From Spirochaetia bacterium (lineage in GTDB: Bacteria; Spirochaetota; Spirochaetia; PWKH01): a stretch of 34,284 nucleotides of DNA. Below, piece after piece: positions 21,165 to 30,985 of the stretch (positions within the stretch are counted from its first letter, which is position 1; each line of letters begins with the position of its first letter). The DNA is taken from contig SKXS01000024.1 of NCBI GenBank assembly GCA_007128345.1, positions 1 to 34,284 of the forward strand, read 5' to 3'. The position numbers and the translations under genes were made by a program. The notes beneath the pieces are model-generated. The model did not search any database. It saw only the letters and a program-made list of their open reading frames with translations, and was not told the DNA's origin.

Positions 21165-21201
21165 AACAACTCCTTAGATCAGTACAACATACGTGTGCAT
21201 G

Positions 21202-21230
21202 ACTATAGTAAGCGGAGAAAAAAAAGTCAA
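21202..21230 (-). promoter_or_regulatory. Strong sigma70-type promoter for the zinc-ribbon gene
   Basis: Minus strand TTGACT-17 bp-TATAGT. Confidence 0.65.
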
Positions 21231-21293
21231 GCGGGATGTGCTGATGCGCCGGGGTCTTTACTTTTGCATCTCCAGGTAGTAGCATGCTCAATT

Positions 21294-21611
21294 ATGACAC
21301 CAAAACAAGTACCGGGCATGGAAGACCTTAAGGAACTCATTGAGGTGTTTGCCGAGATTAACAGCTACGATGAGATGAACAAGCTCTTCAGAGAGCTCTT
21401 CACAGTCAAGGAGATCTACGATGTTGCCCTCAGGTGGCGCCTCATGAAGGATCTGTACCGGAAGGTCCCCCAACGCGAAATAGCCCACGACCTGGGCATA
21501 AGCCTGTGCAAGATAACCAGGGGCTCAAAGATTCTGAAGGAAGATACATCGCAGTGCAGGAAAATTATCGGCACACTGCTCAACGGTGATGAGGCAGGCA
21601 CACAGAAGTGA
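21294..21611 (+). CDS. YerC/YecD family TrpR-like protein
   Basis: ELFTVKEIYDVALRWRLMKDLYRKVPQREIAHDLGISLCKITRGSKIL; start trimmed from 21195 because the upstream part lies in the opposite-strand promoter. Confidence 0.85.
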   Translation: MTPKQVPGMEDLKELIEVFAEINSYDEMNKLFRELFTVKEIYDVALRWRLMKDLYRKVPQREIAHDLGISLCKITRGSKILKEDTSQCRKIIGTLLNGDEAGTQK

Positions 21612-21642: not shown

Positions 21643-22758
21643 CTAGAAGGATATACCGCCGGTGATCCGCAGCTTTGGCAGTTCCCCATCATAGGGATCA
21701 TCTCCGGTTTCGTTAAACAGCGGCAGTGCCGTCGCTGGGATCTGAATGGCTGCGTCGGCGGAGATATGGAGCAGTTCAACCCCGACTCCGAGGGAAAAGG
21801 TCCCCCGTGAAGGTTGTATGGCTCCCACCAGGACATCTGACAGATTTTCCAGCTGCTCAGCATAACCGGCCCGCACAGCGATGCGGTTGTAGTCCGTCAG
21901 GTAGAGACCGCCTTCCACCCCCAGCTGGAGCATTCTCCGGTCATCATCGCCGATATGATCGACGTCAAGAGAACCCATGACCCGAAAGGTATTGATTCTC
22001 CCAAACTGGTCGATTCTCCTGCTCCGCAGTCCTATTCCCACGTTGAGGTCGTCGGTGAGTCCGTTGAATGCGGGAAACTCCCGGTCCTGGGACCAGGCCA
22101 TGAAGTCAAAAAGCTTTTCATGGTACGCACCGACTGATACAATGCCGGTATCAAAGAGGATGCCGGCCTTCATGACCAGCACGTCATAGGCATCTCCTTT
22201 GGGCTCGTAGTCGCTGAGCATCAGATCGAGGGCCAAATCGTATATGGCCCCTATGCTCAGGTTATGCTGACCCATGGAGATGTTATCGGTGACACTCTCC
22301 TTTGAGGCCTGGAGGGATACGCCGAAGGAGAGCATGCCGATTCCCATGGCAGCCCCCACGTCGAGAGTATTGACCTTAGTCACTTCGTACGCGCCGTTAT
22401 TGAAGTCGGAGGGATTCATGTAGTAAGTTGAATGCATGCCGACCCCCCATCCGGGGGCAGTAAATACAAAACGGGGAATAAAGATAGGTGTATACTGCTG
22501 TTCCCCAAAGCTTCGGGGATCAGCATAGTCTTCGTACCCCAGAGTAAATCTGAACCTCCTGTCAGGAATGGTATCCAGTCCTGCGGGGTTCATGAACAAT
22601 GTGTTATGGTCATGGGCTACTGCGGTGTAGGCATGAGAAAGTCCGAATGCCCGGGCATCTCCCGGCGAGGTATAGTGTTCATGCCCTGCAAACAGCAATC
22701 CCGGTACAAGCATACAAAACATGGCGCACACCCATGCGCGAACAATTTTTTTAACCAC
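21643..22758 (-). CDS. Outer-membrane beta-barrel-like protein (FadL/UPF0164-like)
   Basis: Signal peptide VVKKIVRAWVCAMFCMLVPGLLFA; GDARAFGLSHAYTAVAHDHNTLFMNPAGL; alternating C-terminal strands; AGGAG-GTG start. Confidence 0.65.
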   Translation of the reverse strand: MVKKIVRAWVCAMFCMLVPGLLFAGHEHYTSPGDARAFGLSHAYTAVAHDHNTLFMNPAGLDTIPDRRFRFTLGYEDYADPRSFGEQQYTPIFIPRFVFTAPGWGVGMHSTYYMNPSDFNNGAYEVTKVNTLDVGAAMGIGMLSFGVSLQASKESVTDNISMGQHNLSIGAIYDLALDLMLSDYEPKGDAYDVLVMKAGILFDTGIVSVGAYHEKLFDFMAWSQDREFPAFNGLTDDLNVGIGLRSRRIDQFGRINTFRVMGSLDVDHIGDDDRRMLQLGVEGGLYLTDYNRIAVRAGYAEQLENLSDVLVGAIQPSRGTFSLGVGVELLHISADAAIQIPATALPLFNETGDDPYDGELPKLRITGGISF

Positions 22759-22836
22759 GTACAACTCCTGATATGTTTGTGCTACCATACATTAAACTAT
22801 TTACTTGATAAAAAGTTACAAAGAAATGTGAGACTG

Positions 22837-23817
22837 TTATGACTGCCGTTTTGCAAGCCTGTGCAGGAGTCTGCTCAGCGATTCCCGCGCATCGCATGCG
22901 GGGAGCCTGGAAAGCTCCCGATTTGCCTGCTGTTCATAGCTGCGGGCTGTCCGCCGGGCCGCATCCACCCCCCCGATCCTATGTATCTCAGCGATAATCT
23001 CGGGAATCTGCCGGTCTCCGGGGACAGCACCATCAAGCATACGCTTCAGCTTTCCGCTGCGGTCCATCTCCAGGGCGCAGATAAGCGGAAGCGTAGCGAT
23101 GCCTACGGTGAGGTCCTTGCCGACATCCTTTCCCATCCGGTTCGGCCTGCCGGTAATATCAAGTATGTCGTCGTGCATCTGGAAGGAGATGCCCAGGTTG
23201 TATCCGAAACGGGACAAGGCCCGCACCTGTCCGGCATCGAGCTTGCCCGCCGATGCCCCCAGGTAGCAGCTCAGTGAAAAGAGGGCGGCCGTCTTCCCAC
23301 CAATGCGCCGTATGTAACGGCTCTTCGGAATAAAGAAGTTTCCTATCTCGCTGTCCTGGTCGATCTCACTCTCGCACAGCTTTGCCATACGGTCTGACAC
23401 CACTTTGCTGTCGTAGGAACGCTTCATATCCTGAGAGAGGAGCGCGAATGCCCTCACCAGGATATAGTCCCCGGCAACCACGGCCTTGCGGTTTCCGATG
23501 CGCCGATGCAGGGTCTCCTCCCCTCTCCTGGCGGAGGCCTCATCAATGATGTCATCGTGGATAAGTGAAGCAGCGTGGACCAGTTCAATGCCTGCAGCCA
23601 GGGCTGTCACTTCCTCCTGCTGGCTGCTGCCGCTGCCCACCCAGGAAGCAAGGATGAGCAGGGCAGGCCTGAGCATCTTGCCCTGCTGGCTTGCAATGTC
23701 CTGGAGATGCGGCCTGATGTACCCGCGGGCTCCTGAAAGGGTTCCTTTGATGTTGACGCGGACGTGTTCAAGCCACTCAGCAAGCAGTGGGTCCTGGTTC
23801 CAGTACTCGTTGCTCAC
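22837..23817 (-). CDS. Polyprenyl diphosphate synthase family protein
   Basis: LIHDDIIDEASARRGEETLHRRIGNRKAVVAGDY; MHDDILDITGRPNRMGKDVGKDLTVGIATLPLI. Confidence 0.93.
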   Translation of the reverse strand: MSNEYWNQDPLLAEWLEHVRVNIKGTLSGARGYIRPHLQDIASQQGKMLRPALLILASWVGSGSSQQEEVTALAAGIELVHAASLIHDDIIDEASARRGEETLHRRIGNRKAVVAGDYILVRAFALLSQDMKRSYDSKVVSDRMAKLCESEIDQDSEIGNFFIPKSRYIRRIGGKTAALFSLSCYLGASAGKLDAGQVRALSRFGYNLGISFQMHDDILDITGRPNRMGKDVGKDLTVGIATLPLICALEMDRSGKLKRMLDGAVPGDRQIPEIIAEIHRIGGVDAARRTARSYEQQANRELSRLPACDARESLSRLLHRLAKRQS

Positions 23818-23824
23818 GATGCAC

Positions 23825-25828
23825 TTAGCCTTTCTTCCTGAATCTCTTCTTTCGGACTACGGGTTCATCCAGGTAGAGGTACGTCTTGTGGGCAAGCCTG
23901 CAGCCGTTCCACCACTTCTTGATCCACGGCATCACCCAGTAGTCCAAGCCGAAGCACTTGCCTGCGCCTCCAAGCATGACGATGGATACCGCAATGTACC
24001 AGAGAATTTCCTGGCTGGCCAACGCGCCCATGAGCAGCATGAGTGAAAGCCCGATGGACGCAATCGCCGCTGGAAAGGTGAAAAGACCGACAAGGAAGGC
24101 CAGGCCTAAGGCAATTTCCCCGAGCACGATGGACACCTGGAAGAAATACGGCGCCTGGGCAACAAAGGTCTCATTTACCCACTGAAAGATTGCCGTAGGT
24201 TCACTCAGCAGGGGCGGAGCATACTGCGCCACCTCACCGCCGCCTGGGGTTGCCATGGTAAGCGCGTCAGTTGCGGCGGTGACCCCTTCTGCCCCGTTCT
24301 CCCAGGGGGTTGAAGTGGTTACAGCTGACACCCCTTCTGCCCCGTTTTCCAAGGGGGTTGAGCTGGTCACAGCTGACACCCCTTCTGCATCGTTGGCTTC
24401 CCAGGTTGCCCCTGCGGTACCGTCAGCACTTCCCCAGTACACCTTTCCCCCGGTTGTGTCGCTAAGCCAGCCTTGGGGAATCTTCTTGGCTCCTTCAATG
24501 AACCACATAACTCCCAAATACATCCTGAGGAAGGTCAGCCAGTAGGACTGGAGCTTGGCAGTAGCAAGTCCTCCTATGAATGATCGTTTGTTCTTTATAT
24601 CCAGGATCTCATGCTGCAGGTAGCGCCACCATCCGTTGATGCCGCAGGTCGTATGCTGGTAGTAGACATTGACCAGATGCTTCAGCCCCATGGCGAATAT
24701 GCCCGACATGGCTATGCCCATGGTGTACGAGACCGCGTAGCGGCCCCCAATGGACACCATGTACCCGTGGAAATTTGACTTGAATGGTTTAGGCTCCTTG
24801 GCACTGAAGCCAAGTTCCTTGCGTATTTCATAGACCATGCTGTCTACGGCGGTGAAAGCGGTCTGTTCAGCGGCCTCAACTGTCTGGGGAAGCGGAAGCT
24901 CATGCTCAATAAACCATACGGCATCGCCTGCCAGGTAGACTCGGTCGTAATCAACGCTCTTCATGTACTCATTGACCCGCTTCCTGGCCATCATTCCTTC
25001 AGCGAGGGGGAGCTTCTGGGCAAAATCGCTGCCCTTGATGCCGCAGGTCCAGATCACCGTATCGGACTTGATAACCGTCTTGTCCTTCAATGTGATGCTC
25101 CCCGGCTCAGCCTTCACAATGAATGAATTGAGCTTGATCTCCACGCCTTTCTTTTTCAGGTACTTCTCTGCCTTCATGCGGGGCTTTTCCGGCCAGGTAT
25201 TGAGGATCTTGCCGAGGCCTTCAACGGTGATAATCTGTATCTCGTCGGGGTCGGCCTTGAACTCCTTACAGAGGACAGGAATCCATTCAATAAGCTCTCC
25301 CACCATCTCAATACCGGTAAATCCTGCTCCTGCAACCACAAAGGTGAGCATCTGCCTGCGGCGCTCAGGGTCCTTCTCGTAGGAAGCCGCACGTACAGTA
25401 TCCTTGATGTGCTCACGTATCTTCAGGGCATCTGCAAGTCCCCACAGCGAGAACGCGTGCTCCTTGATGCCGGGAATGCCAAAGTCAGAGGACTCCGCTC
25501 CGGTACCCATGAGCAGGTAGTCGTAGCCGTAAGTCTCTGTACTTGAGGTGAGCGTCCGCCCCTCAAAGTCAATGGAAACGATGGTATCCTGCACCACCTT
25601 GACCATGCTGCCGGCGAATATCCGGTCAAAGGATATTTTAACCGATTCCTCCGGGACCCTGCCCCCTGCCAGTTCATGGAGCTCCGTCATGAGTACATGG
25701 AACGGATCCTTGTCTATGAGGGTGATCTCCACCCGGTCGCGCATTTTCTTAAACTGTTTGTGCAGCTTCTTTGCCGCGTGCACTCCTGCATATCCCCCGC
25801 CCAGCACAACTATCTGTATTGGTTTCAT
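23825..25828 (-). CDS. Type II NADH dehydrogenase-like FAD oxidoreductase fused to a DoxX-like membrane domain
   Basis: IQIVVLGGGYAGVHAAKKL; VVAGAGFTGIEMVGEL; RVYLAGDAVWF; C-terminal SYWLTFLRMYLGVMWFIEGAKKI and further TM helices; start at MKPIQ. Confidence 0.88.
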   Translation of the reverse strand: MKPIQIVVLGGGYAGVHAAKKLHKQFKKMRDRVEITLIDKDPFHVLMTELHELAGGRVPEESVKISFDRIFAGSMVKVVQDTIVSIDFEGRTLTSSTETYGYDYLLMGTGAESSDFGIPGIKEHAFSLWGLADALKIREHIKDTVRAASYEKDPERRRQMLTFVVAGAGFTGIEMVGELIEWIPVLCKEFKADPDEIQIITVEGLGKILNTWPEKPRMKAEKYLKKKGVEIKLNSFIVKAEPGSITLKDKTVIKSDTVIWTCGIKGSDFAQKLPLAEGMMARKRVNEYMKSVDYDRVYLAGDAVWFIEHELPLPQTVEAAEQTAFTAVDSMVYEIRKELGFSAKEPKPFKSNFHGYMVSIGGRYAVSYTMGIAMSGIFAMGLKHLVNVYYQHTTCGINGWWRYLQHEILDIKNKRSFIGGLATAKLQSYWLTFLRMYLGVMWFIEGAKKIPQGWLSDTTGGKVYWGSADGTAGATWEANDAEGVSAVTSSTPLENGAEGVSAVTTSTPWENGAEGVTAATDALTMATPGGGEVAQYAPPLLSEPTAIFQWVNETFVAQAPYFFQVSIVLGEIALGLAFLVGLFTFPAAIASIGLSLMLLMGALASQEILWYIAVSIVMLGGAGKCFGLDYWVMPWIKKWWNGCRLAHKTYLYLDEPVVRKKRFRKKG
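24279..24392. repeat. 48-bp (16-aa) imperfect tandem repeat within the NDH-2-like gene
   Basis: Two near-identical 48-bp copies (24279-24326, 24327-24374) plus a partial third; encodes (N)GAEGVSAVTTSTPWE-type repeats. Confidence 0.85.
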
Positions 25829-25886
25829 GTATAACTCCATCTCCTAACCTATGCTTTCTATTCCAAAGTATTATTCTATCGCAGGG

Positions 25887-25915
25887 TTGTCAAGACTTAG
25901 CTTTTTCATCATAAT
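25887..25915 (+). promoter_or_regulatory. Candidate promoter of the apbE-like gene (possibly leaderless)
   Basis: TTGTCA-17 bp-CATAAT ending 6 nt before the ATG at 25922. Confidence 0.55.
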
Positions 25916-25921
25916 TATTTC

Positions 25922-27022
25922 ATGAGTAAATATCACATATTACGCAGCATTAATGTATTATTGTTAATAATATTACCATTGTTGTTTATAATTAACTGTT
26001 CTGACAATAAGAATTCACATAATAGTGCTGCTGTTTCACATAATCCGACGGCGAAAAACCACCTTGCGCTGGGCACAGCCTCCCGGGTTACTATTTATGA
26101 CCAGGAACCTGCACGGGCTGAGGAGATTCTCAAGCGTTCGTTTGCCCGGATTGACGATATTGAAGCGTCCATGACCCTCTACAACTCTGGCAGTGAGATC
26201 GCCAGGGTGAACAGGAACGCCGGAGGTCAGTTCACATCAGTTTCTGAGGAGACCTTTTTGGTCATCACCCAAGCCCTGGAGATAGCCGCTCAGACAGGCG
26301 GCGCTTTTGACCCGACCGTGGGGCCCTTGGTGAAGGCTTGGGGGATCGGATCAGACAACCCTATGATACCCGGAGAACAGGAGATGGCCATGCTCCTGGA
26401 CCTTGTGGACTATCGTGAGGTCGAACTCTCCCGTGAGGGCGGGGATTATCTTGTCAGGCTGAAGCGTCCCGACATGATGCTCGACCTCGGCGGCATAGCA
26501 AAAGGGTACGCCGCTGACGCGGTTAAGGAGGTGATCACGGGGATGGGCTCCTCGAGCGCCCTTATCAACCTGGGGGGAAACATTCTCCTGAAAGGAAGCA
26601 AGCCCGACGGCACACCCTGGAGGATAGGAATCCAGGATCCCGATGCAAACCGGGGAGCCTATGTGCTCATCCTTAATCTGACCTCGGGGACGGTGGTCAC
26701 ATCGGGCACGTATGAGCGGTTTTTCTACGATGCATCCGACCAGCGGTTCCACCACATCCTTGATCCGTGGGACGGATATCCCGTTGAAAACGGGCTGGAA
26801 AGCGTCACGATAGTCACTGAGAATTCCGCGTATGCCGACGGACTCTCCACAGGAGTGTTTGTTCTCGGACTCGAGCGGGGATGGGAGCTTGTGGAGTCGC
26901 TTCCGGGGGTGGATGCCGTGTTCATCACCGAGGATCAGAAGATATATATCACGCCGGGGATCACTTCCTATACGCTTTCAAACCAGGAATTCACTATCCG
27001 CAGCACCCTGCAGTCTCCTTGA
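25922..27022 (+). CDS. apbE: FAD:protein FMN transferase (ApbE), predicted lipoprotein
   Basis: Lipobox LLFIINC; LGTASRVTIYD; GAFDPTVGPLVKAWGIG; DLGGIAKGYAADAV; ALINLGGNIL; HHILDPWDGYP. Confidence 0.93.
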   Translation: MSKYHILRSINVLLLIILPLLFIINCSDNKNSHNSAAVSHNPTAKNHLALGTASRVTIYDQEPARAEEILKRSFARIDDIEASMTLYNSGSEIARVNRNAGGQFTSVSEETFLVITQALEIAAQTGGAFDPTVGPLVKAWGIGSDNPMIPGEQEMAMLLDLVDYREVELSREGGDYLVRLKRPDMMLDLGGIAKGYAADAVKEVITGMGSSSALINLGGNILLKGSKPDGTPWRIGIQDPDANRGAYVLILNLTSGTVVTSGTYERFFYDASDQRFHHILDPWDGYPVENGLESVTIVTENSAYADGLSTGVFVLGLERGWELVESLPGVDAVFITEDQKIYITPGITSYTLSNQEFTIRSTLQSP

Positions 27023-27587
27023 AGTACAGCCATGCACCCCATACCGCCGCAGCTGCAGCGGCACTTATGACGGCAGTCAGCTTCCATGGACCTGCAGCCG
27101 CCTCAACTGCGTCGGGACTATCGGTTTCCATGCGTACAAGCAGCGCATCAAGACTGCTTACTATCTGTCCCGGCTTCAGGGAGAGACGGTGCTGGAGAAA
27201 CTGATTATAGTACGAGAACTGCATGCTCAGCAGCATGCCGATCCTTCCCGGGAACCTGGGCTTCCCTGATACCATGAACCGGGACAGATAGATCAAGGCG
27301 ATGAGGGTGAGGGCCTTGCGCAGTCCGATCTCCAGGGCTCCCTGGGTTATCGGGAGGGACCAGAGGGTGAACAGCACCCGTCCATGGGCCTGCAGAAGGT
27401 TAAGCGCCGTTACCGACACTATCATGATGATGTTCGGGAGCATCCGTATTCGCTCGCCCCGTATGATCTGGAGGATCATGAATATGATCACCTGGGCTGC
27501 CAGCGAGCCTACTGATGAATGGAAAACCACTGCAGGAAGCATCACCAGTCCTGCCGCCATGGGGATATTCCTGCTGCTGATCAACAC
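26994..27587 (-). CDS. EcfT/CbiQ-like membrane protein
   Basis: GTG start after AGGAGG, overlapping the Gx stop; GRVLFTLWSLPITQGALEIGLRKALTLIALIYLSRFMV...LPGRIGMLLSMQFSYYNQF. Confidence 0.6.
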   Translation of the reverse strand: MLISSRNIPMAAGLVMLPAVVFHSSVGSLAAQVIIFMILQIIRGERIRMLPNIIMIVSVTALNLLQAHGRVLFTLWSLPITQGALEIGLRKALTLIALIYLSRFMVSGKPRFPGRIGMLLSMQFSYYNQFLQHRLSLKPGQIVSSLDALLVRMETDSPDAVEAAAGPWKLTAVISAAAAAAVWGAWLYFKETAGCCG

Positions 27588-28123
27588 GGCGCCTCCTGAT
27601 CTGCAAGCCACCGGGAGGATCCCGCAAACTGCTCGGCAAACAGGCCCAGGAGGACCGATGTGACCAGCCCCATAATGAGAAACGGCGGGGCGATCAGCCA
27701 CGCACTGCGGCCGAAAAGCAGCACTCCGGCCAGTATAAGCTGTGAGCTGTTGCTCACCGTAGCCCCTGCTACGCTGATACCGACGAAGGTTATCCGCTTC
27801 CCGCAGGTTCGGTAAAGCAGGTACATCACCAGCGCGCTGGAGAGGGTTCCCGCCAGGGAAAAGAGAAAGACATAGGAGACTAATGTGCCGTGGATGATCC
27901 CCTGGCCAAGTACTTTGAGCACCACCAGGAGGGAATACTCCCGGGTATTCAGGGCGATCAGACCGATCATCACAGCCAGATTCGCAAGTCCTATGCGCAC
28001 AAAGGGCATGGGACGCGGGATGAGGTACTCAACTGTAGACAGAAAGAGTGCAAACGCAGCAAGCATGGCAACGGATCTGATACGCAGTTCCGCTCTGCCT
28101 GATGCCCGGTCAGAATGCGACAT
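27581..28123 (-). CDS. Gx transporter family protein (heptaprenyl diphosphate synthase component I family; EetB-like)
   Basis: ALFLSTVEYLIPRPMPFVRIGLANLAVMIGLIAL; GGAGGTG RBS before ATGTCGCATTC. Confidence 0.85.
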   Translation of the reverse strand: MSHSDRASGRAELRIRSVAMLAAFALFLSTVEYLIPRPMPFVRIGLANLAVMIGLIALNTREYSLLVVLKVLGQGIIHGTLVSYVFLFSLAGTLSSALVMYLLYRTCGKRITFVGISVAGATVSNSSQLILAGVLLFGRSAWLIAPPFLIMGLVTSVLLGLFAEQFAGSSRWLADQEAPC

Positions 28124-28493
28124 CGTCCACCTCCCGCTCTCCTGTTTCAATTCCTTCAATGCGGATGAAGACATCGTTGGGCAGGCAGATAATCCACTGC
28201 CCGATCCTGCTGATTGTCTTCATGGATTCGCAGACCTTGTTCCTGCAGGTTGAGTCCGACACATGCACGCCCCCCTGATGGATGGTTACCTCCGTCGGTC
28301 CCAGGGGTCCCGGGATGCTGACGACAGTGTCTGACTCAATTGAGTAGATCCACTGCTGCCCTGAAGCTTCAATGAGCACCTGGGGCGTGCCCTCCCTTGA
28401 TCCGTATACGGAGAATGCGAGCAGCCCTACGGCAATCACCGTGATTCCTATGATACCTGCATCCAGCAGCGTCAGTCGTTTCATCTCGGCCAT
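28110..28493 (-). CDS. NusG domain II-containing protein (EetA-like)
   Basis: N-terminal TM; VTIHQGGVHVSDSTCRNKVCESMKTISRIGQWIICLPNDVFIRIEG. Confidence 0.88.
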   Translation of the reverse strand: MAEMKRLTLLDAGIIGITVIAVGLLAFSVYGSREGTPQVLIEASGQQWIYSIESDTVVSIPGPLGPTEVTIHQGGVHVSDSTCRNKVCESMKTISRIGQWIICLPNDVFIRIEGIETGEREVDDVAF

Positions 28494-28534
28494 GATATAC
28501 TATATTTTTTTGTTTTAATACAGGGGCAGATATA

Positions 28535-28563
28535 TTGCATGACAAAAACAATTAGCTTATAAT
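28535..28563 (+). promoter_or_regulatory. Sigma70-type promoter of the triple FMN-binding protein
   Basis: TTGCAT-17 bp-TATAAT in an AT-rich intergenic region. Confidence 0.65.
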
Positions 28564-28606
28564 TTTGATATAGTATTATCTATATACGTAATCGGAGGAA
28601 TTTACC

Positions 28607-29836
28607 ATGAAGAGACTCATCGCAGTACTCATTGTATTGACAATCGTCCTGGTTTCAGCAAGTGCTGCCGGGACACGCGACGTGTCGCACCTCATCCCTG
28701 TGGAATCTGCAGGATTTGAGGACGGCATCTATTTTGCCCAGGAACCCGGATTCGCGGAACGCAGCGGCTGGAAGTACGTCGTCACCCTTGAAGTGGCAGG
28801 AGGCAGGATCGTATCAGCTGACTGGAACGGGGCGCACCGGAATGCCGGCCTTGACAAAAAGACCCTGGATAAAATGGGCGGCTACCAGATGGTGGCCCGA
28901 GGCGGCGCCATAGACGAATGGTATGTCCAGGCGCAGCGGGTTGAGCAGAAGCTCATAGAAACCCAGGATCTCGCTTCCCTGCCCTACGATGAAGGCGGGT
29001 ACACCGACGCGGTGAGCGGAGTAACCATACATATCAATGAATTTGTGGATTTGGCAGCTGAAGCGCTTGCCCAGGGACCGGTAGGACGCGGACCCCATGC
29101 TGACGGGAGCTACTTTGCCCAGGATCTCCAGTTCCCTGAACGGGGAAGCTGGAAGAGCACCGTCAGGCTCACAGTCATCAACGGATACATCGTTGCAGCC
29201 AACTGGAGCGGAGTCAATCCGCAAGGTGACGACAAGAAGACCGTTGACCGTGCAGGCGGCTACCAGATGGTGGCACGGGGCGGCGCCATCGACGAGTGGT
29301 ACGTCCAGGCAGGACGGGTGGAGGCCCATCTGCTGGAGACACAGGATCCCCGCATCCCCTATGATGAAGGCGGGTACACCGACGCAGTCAGCGGCGTGAC
29401 CATCTATATTAATGATTTTGTCAGACTGGTCCACAAAGCCCTTGAGAAGGGTCCCGTGGGCGCACCTCCCTACGTTGACGGTAGGTACACCGCACAGGAG
29501 GCAGATTTCAACGAGCGGACCGGATGGAAGTCCACTATTGAGATCCTCGTTTCCGGCGGATTCATCGTTGATGTCAACTGGAGCGCAATTCACCGGGACG
29601 GACGTGACAAGAAGACCGTAGACCGTGCCGGAGAGTACCAGATGGTGGCCCGGGGCGGCGCCATAGACGAGTGGTACGTTCAGGCAGGCCGGGTGGAGGC
29701 CCATCTGCTGGAAACACAGAATCCCCACATCCCCCACGATGAGGGCGGGTACACCGATGCAATAAGCGGCGTGACCATCTACATAGATGACTTTGTCAAA
29801 CTCGCAGACAAGGCGCTCGAAGGAGCTCGAAGATAG
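28607..29836 (+). CDS. Secreted protein with three tandem FMN-binding domains
   Basis: Signal peptide MKRLIAVLIVLTIVLVSASA; three repeats each ending YTDA(V/I)SGVTI; cggaggaatttacc RBS. Confidence 0.9.
   Translation: MKRLIAVLIVLTIVLVSASAAGTRDVSHLIPVESAGFEDGIYFAQEPGFAERSGWKYVVTLEVAGGRIVSADWNGAHRNAGLDKKTLDKMGGYQMVARGGAIDEWYVQAQRVEQKLIETQDLASLPYDEGGYTDAVSGVTIHINEFVDLAAEALAQGPVGRGPHADGSYFAQDLQFPERGSWKSTVRLTVINGYIVAANWSGVNPQGDDKKTVDRAGGYQMVARGGAIDEWYVQAGRVEAHLLETQDPRIPYDEGGYTDAVSGVTIYINDFVRLVHKALEKGPVGAPPYVDGRYTAQEADFNERTGWKSTIEILVSGGFIVDVNWSAIHRDGRDKKTVDRAGEYQMVARGGAIDEWYVQAGRVEAHLLETQNPHIPHDEGGYTDAISGVTIYIDDFVKLADKALEGARR
28706..29830 (+). repeat. Three tandem 375-bp domain repeats
   Basis: Putative flavinylated Thr at residues 140, 265, 390 (period 125 aa); copies 2 and 3 near-identical over YQMVARGGAIDEWYVQAGRVEAHLLETQ. 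Confidence 0.85.
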
Positions 29837-29842
29837 CACACC

Positions 29843-29870
29843 AAACGGCCAGGAAGTCACCTGGCCGTTT
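29843..29870 (+). terminator. Intrinsic terminator after the FMN-binding protein gene
   Basis: AAACGGCCAGG-aagtca-CCTGGCCGTTT, 11-bp perfect stem, followed by ccttt. Confidence 0.8.
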
Positions 29871-29914: not shown

Positions 29915-30985
29915 ATGAAACTGTTCACCAAGTTCCGCAGACGCAGGGACGTGACGATCCTCTCCATAGACGGCGGGGGGGTGAGAGGCATCATTCCCAT
30001 CACCGTCCTGCTGGCGCTGCAGCAGGAAATGGAGCTCCAGGACATCAAGCTGCCTCTGTATGCCTGTTTCGACCTGATAGCGGGATCTTCCACCGGAGGC
30101 CTGGTGGCCCTAGGCCTGGCGGCCCCCAATGCGAACCTTCCGAAAGATGATGCTTCACCTGACAGACCGAAGCAGCGGAACCTCCCCGCTCCCATCCTGC
30201 CCGCAATGACATTGGAGAGCATCCTCCATATCTATGAAGCGCGAAGCGGAGACATCTTCCCCCAGGGTCCCCTGAAGGACCTCAGGGCTCTCGCACAGCT
30301 GTTTACCGAGAAGTACCAGGAAGACTCCCTGGAAAATCTGATTTATGAAATTTTCGGCGACCTCTCCATGGCGGATGCTCTGACACCAGCAATGATTACC
30401 TCCTACGAATGTCTTTCCGGAGAACCCTTCCTCTTCACATCCTATGCCGACCACCCCTACCGCATGCGGGAAGCAGCCAGGGCGACCACCGCCGCACCTA
30501 CCTATTTTTCCCCTACGGTCATCAGGTCACCTGAAGACGGGACAAACAGGTGCTTCATAGACGGCGGGGTGGCGGCAAACAATCCCGCGCTCTACGCCTA
30601 CTGCGAGGCCAGGAAGCTCTATCCTGAGGCGATACGGTTTCACATCCTCTCAATCGGCACATCGGGAAGTTCCTTCTCCGTATCCATGGGCAACATTAAG
30701 CGTATGGGAATTCTTGACTGGATTTCTCCTGCAAAGGGTGTTCCCCTGCTCAACGCCTATGCCGCCAGCCAGTACTATACCCAGGAGCATGTGCTGAAGA
30801 ATATTGAGGGGGTGACCTATCACCGTATTGCCGGAAACAAGGGGAATATATCAATTCCTATGGATGACTCCAGCAGGGAGAACATCCTGCGCGTCAAGCG
30901 AACCGCAAGCGCCATTGTCAGGGACCACGAGGAGGTGATCGAAGCGTACTGCAGGCTCTACCTCGCCAACCGACGGCATGCGTGA
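29915..30985 (+). CDS. Patatin-like phospholipase family protein
   Basis: LSIDGGGVRGIIPI; GSSTGG nucleophile motif; FIDGGVAANNPALYA. Confidence 0.92.
   Translation: MKLFTKFRRRRDVTILSIDGGGVRGIIPITVLLALQQEMELQDIKLPLYACFDLIAGSSTGGLVALGLAAPNANLPKDDASPDRPKQRNLPAPILPAMTLESILHIYEARSGDIFPQGPLKDLRALAQLFTEKYQEDSLENLIYEIFGDLSMADALTPAMITSYECLSGEPFLFTSYADHPYRMREAARATTAAPTYFSPTVIRSPEDGTNRCFIDGGVAANNPALYAYCEARKLYPEAIRFHILSIGTSGSSFSVSMGNIKRMGILDWISPAKGVPLLNAYAASQYYTQEHVLKNIEGVTYHRIAGNKGNISIPMDDSSRENILRVKRTASAIVRDHEEVIEAYCRLYLANRRHA

Follow-up and report, generated by a model that had tools for sequence, protein, structure and literature searches.

A probable Listeria-type flavin-based extracytosolic electron transfer locus in a diderm spirochaete

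Gene content and layout of the locus

The window analysed here, a stretch of 34,284 nucleotides, is contig C77 of a Spirochaetia bacterium assembly (2.26 Mb in 284 contigs, about 90% complete, 4.5% contamination). A first-pass annotation had read part of it as a FLEET-like (flavin-based extracytosolic electron transfer) cluster of seven genes in three transcription units. Gene calls and HMM scans recovered all seven genes in place but divided them into four units, namely the triple FMN-binding protein gene (+ strand), EetA-EetB-EcfT (− strand), ApbE (+ strand) and Ndh2-DmkB (− strand). The units form two divergent pairs: the triple-FMN gene is separated from EetA-EetB-EcfT by an A+T-rich intergenic region (28494-28606), and ApbE from Ndh2-DmkB by a second intergenic region (25841-25921), in which a promoter-like sequence lies at 25887-25915 on the + strand. 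No operator common to these two regions was found, the repeats within 28494-28606 being short and A+T-rich, and an Rfam scan of the window returned neither an FMN nor any other riboswitch. The convergent ApbE and EcfT-like genes overlap by 29 bases, and a terminator-like hairpin with an 11-pair stem (29843-29870, + strand) is located 3' of the triple-FMN gene. Six of the seven families were assigned by HMM, with the Pfam families expected of DmkB, ApbE, EetB, EetA and the FMN_bind protein all matched; the seventh, that of the EcfT-like protein, was assigned by its fold and its natural fusion to EetB.

Ndh2 (23825-25840, − strand) is a type II NADH dehydrogenase (Pyr_redox_2, 4.9e-34) whose best PDB match is the NDH-2 structure 4nwz (E 5.7e-61). 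As in FLEET, this NDH-2 homologue carries a C-terminal membrane domain, which is DoxX/DoxD-like (Pfam DoxX match of 0.0015, sub-cutoff) and contains two clear hydrophobic segments (569-587 and 612-630). The protein is conserved across a 15-sequence alignment (A1). After a hydrophobic stretch, residues about 470-550 form an Ala/Ser/Gly-rich repetitive linker with NGAEGVSAVTSSTPLE-like repeats; a linker of this kind, variable in length, is present in most of the aligned spirochaete Ndh2 proteins and is possibly a periplasmic loop. The gene immediately 3' of Ndh2, here and in nearly all spirochaete relatives, encodes the DmkB-like polyprenyl diphosphate synthase (22837-23817, − strand; PF00348, E 2.6e-56; GerC3_HepT-like, 1.5e-59, sub-cutoff), which would supply the isoprenoid tail for DMK.

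The genes flanking the locus were also inspected. A PorV/FadL-like outer-membrane protein (21643-22788, − strand; PorV_fam, 4.9e-8, sub-cutoff) is encoded 49 bp downstream of DmkB, with which the gene could be co-transcribed, and is only loosely associated with the locus. Its L116 homologue is 40% identical and occupies the same position, and no such gene was found at the locus in the other relatives; the protein was therefore rejected for now as an electron exit conduit. Between its gene and a MurC-like one lies that of a Trp-repressor-family regulator (21195-21611, + strand; PF01371, 2.6e-15). At the opposite end, a patatin-like phospholipase (29915-30985, + strand) matched CBASS effector models of NCBIfam (1.2e-49, below cutoff) and PADLOC (6.5e-59). 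It adjoins the FMN gene in L116 too, and no cyclase that could partner it was seen in the neighbouring genes scanned.

The ApbE/FmnB-like FAD:protein FMN transferase (25922-27022, + strand; PF02424, 7.4e-91) is a predicted lipoprotein with the lipobox ...FIINC, as is the corresponding FLEET component. EetB (27581-28174, − strand; PF07456, 4.5e-37), whose start likely lies near 28123, resembles an ECF S-component and is the predicted substrate subunit of an FAD exporter. EetA (28110-28493, − strand; PF07009, 1.4e-19) is a NusG_II-domain protein with one transmembrane segment. Pfam thus upheld the earlier Gx-transporter and NusG_II calls, whereas the EcfT/FmnA-like transmembrane subunit (26994-27587, − strand) had no match in Pfam or NCBIfam and was recognised from its predicted structure. 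An AlphaFold2 model based on 13 relatives in the alignment reached a pLDDT of 81.6, and its ten best PDB fold matches were all ECF/CbiQ (cobalt ECF) transporter chains, with a best E value of only 0.015 at a probability of 1.00. A longer ORF begins at 27701; the GTG at 27587 is the more likely start, since it is preceded by AGGAGG and overlaps the EetB stop codon. EetB and the EcfT-like protein are tied together by their occurrence as one polypeptide of 428-437 aa in L127, L160 and L164. Only these three were counted, as further apparent fusions among short proteins were an artefact of fused rows in the EetB profile. By analogy, we take the two proteins to be most likely the S and T components of an ECF-type exporter of FAD, the pairing of EetB with FmnA/EcfT known from FLEET, rather than electron carriers. 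None of the ECF ATPases (EcfA/EcfA') is encoded within the window. FAD export in Listeria requires both EetB and FmnA, ApbE/FmnB flavinylates PplA there and EetA is dispensable, and eetB homologues exist outside Firmicutes (PMC9973259).

The PplA-like secreted protein (28607-29836, + strand; PF04205, 9.1e-8; NCBIfam PplA, 4.1e-18, below cutoff) had been described as multi-FMN-binding, in agreement with the three tandem FMN_bind repeats of about 120 residues that we found in it, mutually 60-69% identical. Its PDB match is 2kzx (1.2e-31), and its AlphaFold2 model (pLDDT 90.3) consists of three repeated units, matched by Foldseek to 2kzx (5.5e-10) and 3o6u (1.8e-5). Each repeat carries one acceptor motif of the form D-x-x-S-G-V-T (DAVSGVT, DAVSGVT and DAISGVT), which gives three predicted sites where at least two are expected of a PplA-like protein. 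The published flavinylation motif is Dxx[S/T]GA[S/T]-like (PMC10339131), and in the window's motif V takes the place of the usual A. The motifs of relatives vary (AGVS, AGAT, SGVS and others), genuine sites ending in T or S as judged by eye. We read the SGVT sites as probably functional. Among the FMN proteins of L117-L139 and others, most of the Sphaerochaetaceae-like homologues have a serine as acceptor (AGVS) and an alanine in place of the canonical S/T preceding the glycine, which is unusual for ApbE substrates; the acceptors of PplA are Thr143 and Thr265, for which serine can substitute (PMC8906456).

The triple-FMN protein has a Sec signal and no lipobox, unlike the FMN proteins of most relatives, and thus may be a soluble periplasmic carrier; we do not treat the lipoprotein anchor of PplA as essential to function. 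The same feature bears on where the electrons go. A chain that ends in the periplasm, with the triple-FMN protein feeding a soluble acceptor or detoxifying oxidants and no true EET, has slightly less than an even chance in our estimation. In its favour are the missing lipobox, the lack of an outer-membrane conduit linked to the locus and the re-oxidation by oxygen of SaFMN3, a similar triple-FMN protein (PMC10339131). Neither a terminal reductase nor a multihaem cytochrome is tied to the locus. Cytochrome c assembly was likewise not found in the window's genome, which fits the use of flavins in place of haems. On the other hand, Listeria-type chains reduce ferric iron and electrodes, the lipobox is retained by most relatives, and the spirochaete outer membrane could be crossed by free flavins or small mediators. 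The evidence extends to "extracytosolic" transfer, and extracellular transfer in this diderm would go beyond it.

Conservation of the locus and its genomic redox context

Ndh2-like proteins were detected in 99 of the 393 sampled Spirochaetota genomes, the lowest-scoring of them matching the NDH-2 part only. In the regions around 20 Spirochaetota Ndh2 genes, Ndh2 is followed by DmkB almost throughout, and the pair is kept across many Spirochaetia families. The window's full gene order is also present in L071, L074 and L075 and, in the named collection, in L116, L118 (where DmkB falls past the contig end), L120, L124, L126, L129, L137 and L139, some of these genomes being the same as those of the former set; it recurs in Sphaerochaetaceae. 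In L090 and L168 the Ndh2-DmkB pair is accompanied by genes for an FMN protein and MenA, and in Sphaerochaeta halotolerans (L117) by an FMN gene. The closest named relative by Ndh2 is the MAG Spirochaetaceae bacterium CSSed10_181R1 (L116, 70-72% identity), and the window's Ndh2 places beside Sphaerochaetaceae. In an Ndh2 tree of 78 rows, sampled from the best 80 loci, outside which wider exchange is possible, 60 Spirochaetota rows are split from 17 Bacillota rows on one branch with full support. Because of this split, the locus is likely to be old in Spirochaetota, with no recent import into the window's genome. The full order recurs in genomes independent of one another, with protein identities of about 25-60%, which argues that the arrangement is not due to chance. 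Families, synteny and phylogeny are all in line with the original suggestion that this spirochaete has a FLEET-like locus.

The window's ApbE is the sole ApbE found in the genome and hence must also serve RNF and NQR-type complexes; the flavin maturation genes (ApbE and the exporter) are probably common to the window's chain, RNF and NQR. RnfABCDGE-like genes and a second, NqrC-D-E-F-like set are located in the same genome on L092 (C251) and L093 (C166). The NqrC-D-E-F-like set adjoins a 1181-aa ORF resembling, by eye, pyruvate:ferredoxin oxidoreductase, and its NqrF-like protein scored 290 bits against a cutoff of 295. Several candidate redox entry points are thus common to one ApbE in this genome. 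C143 (L003:1486-1881) encodes a further likely ApbE substrate, a small protein of 131 aa that has one FMN_bind domain and a DSLSGAT motif and matched nothing in NCBIfam.

This setting raises the question of whether ApbE, EetB, the EcfT-like protein and EetA are a housekeeping flavinylation module, mainly for RNF/NQR, to which Ndh2, DmkB and the FMN protein are adjacent by chance. Both RnfG and the NqrC-like protein carry FMN motifs, RnfB/C/D/G and an NqrF-like protein are present, and a single ApbE serves the genome. NusG_II (PF07009) is also more widespread than Ndh2, occurring in 226 of the 393 Spirochaetota genomes, and in G358, G326 and G387 EetA-EetB are distant from Ndh2-DmkB-FMN. We nevertheless consider a chance neighbourhood unlikely, as many relatives keep the flavin and Ndh2 halves intermixed in a single constant order, with divergent promoters, and the triple-FMN protein, which needs ApbE, adjoins Ndh2 even where EetA/B are elsewhere. 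In the window's genome, ApbE and EetB do not stand beside rnf or nqr, which are found on C251 and C166 rather than near the locus.

Quinone supply

The first-pass annotation had noted no MenA/DmkA-like prenyltransferase. This is correct for the window but not for the genome, in which MenA is encoded on contig C222, beyond the reach of that annotation. The model closest to the genome's MenA is the DHNA polyprenyltransferase PRK13387 (E 2e-53, sub-cutoff), so that the DMK-synthesis pair of FLEET is represented by DmkB in the window and, on C222, by a MenA whose matches to DHNA polyprenyltransferase models are below the cutoffs. A UbiA-family prenyltransferase was present in all 26 Ndh2-bearing spirochaetes, and 17 of them had a MenA-like protein (more than 170 bits to the MenA of the window's genome).

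Profile searches of the window's genome found neither MqnA/D nor MenB; with the assembly about 90% complete, such gene absences are no proof. MenD gave a match only far below cutoff, on C156; since the ORF beside it is dihydroxyacid-dehydratase-like, we judge this match, from the sequence, to be acetolactate-synthase-like. Among the 26 Ndh2-bearing relatives, MenB was not detected over the cutoff in any, and weak PF02621 matches were obtained in seven. Three of the four matches examined as possible MqnA/D (L228, L229 and L231) are SsuA-type ABC binding proteins, L230 being the fourth. As no DHNA pathway was detected, the quinone pool is probably supplied from outside, with the naphthoate head group scavenged; by analogy with L. 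plantarum (PMC10746273), uptake of DHNA or a related precursor would be the simplest reading. An exchange of quinone precursors was reportedly proposed by Ravcheev and Thiele. The transporters of such an exchange were noted there as still to be annotated (PMC4746308).

A candidate for precursor salvage was identified in relatives. In 8 of the 26 Ndh2-bearing spirochaetes, an MqnP-type UbiA is clustered with UbiD and UbiX, and six of these eight also carry, in or beside the run, genes for an NMT1/SsuA-like binding protein and ABC components; L234 has the binding protein with the ABC genes more distant, and L238 has neither. The module comprises an MqnL-type UbiD, an MqnP-like UbiA, UbiX, the NMT1/SsuA-like binding protein, an ABC ATPase and an ABC permease, as in L239 (5455-10833), and is also represented in L125, L137, L140, L142, L163, L181, L185 and L232-L237. 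The UbiD of G387 scored 659 bits against a cutoff of 496 for the menaquinone decarboxylase model, and in the same genome UbiX was over its cutoff and MqnP, at 275 bits, below. The module adjoins or lies near the Ndh2 loci of L125, L137, L142, L181 and L239, as well as those of the Bacillota L140, L163 and L185, and L129 has similar ABC importer genes beside a MenA-like gene. The module would salvage 1,4-dihydroxy-6-naphthoate or DHNA. It is a tentative proposal, about which we are slightly more doubtful than confident, that quinone head groups obtained by scavenging sustain the flavin chains of spirochaetes and some Clostridia, with the module importing a soluble naphthoate, such as 1,4-dihydroxy-6-naphthoate, for conversion to quinone. 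The window's genome would then be of the MenA (DHNA) type, and the salvage module, if this is true, would fill the unassigned importer role in the exchange of quinone precursors. A literature search, conducted mostly without subscription papers, found no description of the linkage between the module and Ndh2. Given the lack of detectable quinone synthesis, the many Spirochaetia with the locus are predicted to depend on neighbours for the precursor.

The proposed chain and its known counterparts

We regard it as quite probable that this diderm spirochaete has, in the locus, a flavin-based extracytosolic chain of the Listeria type that depends on a quinone precursor and leads into the periplasm. 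Ndh2 would oxidise NADH and reduce a (demethyl)menaquinone in the membrane, the tail of which would come from DmkB and be attached by the MenA/DmkA encoded elsewhere in the genome, while its naphthoate head group would be scavenged. FAD would be exported by EetB and the EcfT-like subunit, powered by ECF ATPases, and the lipoprotein ApbE would split it and flavinylate the triple-FMN protein at its three SGVT threonines with the resulting FMN. The triple-FMN protein would take electrons from the quinol and convey them across the periplasm to a terminal acceptor for which the locus has no gene. The identity of the quinone, the flavinylation and the direction of electron flow are what we infer by analogy with characterised chains. 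NDH-2 enzymes act as NADH oxidases, and reversal to NADH needs ion-gradient input. Inward flow, from an external donor to the FMN protein and the quinone, would thus be unfavourable without such input, and we hold it to be highly improbable, even though flavin and quinone potentials allow reversal and cathodic uptake has been reported for L. plantarum (PMC10701730).

An outward chain from NADH to the periplasm would matter for how these bacteria are viewed. Spirochaetia have long been treated as fermenters, and the conservation of the locus in many of them predicts that electrons are dumped in the periplasm or further out. What is known of flavin-based electron transfer comes mainly from Gram-positive bacteria, and our literature search found, among the papers it covered, none on such a locus in spirochaetes.

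The locus is a spirochaetal version of the known Listeria-type system with some variant traits. The Listeria monocytogenes locus consists of ndh2, dmkA, dmkB, fmnA, fmnB, pplA, eetA and eetB, and all eight functions are present in the window's genome, with MenA/DmkA elsewhere. In contrast to Listeria, the host is a diderm, dmkA lies on another contig, the genes form four units on both strands and the DHNA pathway was not detected in the genome; the FMN protein has an SGVT motif, no lipobox and three FMN domains in place of the two flavin sites. The Bacillota loci (Thermoanaerobacter L158, Caldanaerobacter L171, Clostridium and Fonticella) have an orthologous Ndh2 (about 42-48% identity), placed among the best 80 loci on the opposite side of one tree branch from Spirochaetota, and the same partners. 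They differ in their smaller FMN proteins and, in L158 and L171, in the single-strand order Ndh2-EetA-EetB-DmkB-ApbE-MenA, with dmkA inside the cluster and, in L158, the FMN gene next. L. plantarum likewise performs Ndh2-based EET without quinone synthesis of its own, on exogenous quinones (PMC10746273); its quinone dependence is experimental, whereas the auxotrophy of the window's host is deduced from missing genes. SaFMN3 and CbFMN4 (PMC10339131) share with the window's protein the tandem FMN_bind domains, one covalent-FMN site in each and a position near ApbE, while the domains in the window are longer (about 120 aa, 2kzx type) and their motif has V for A.
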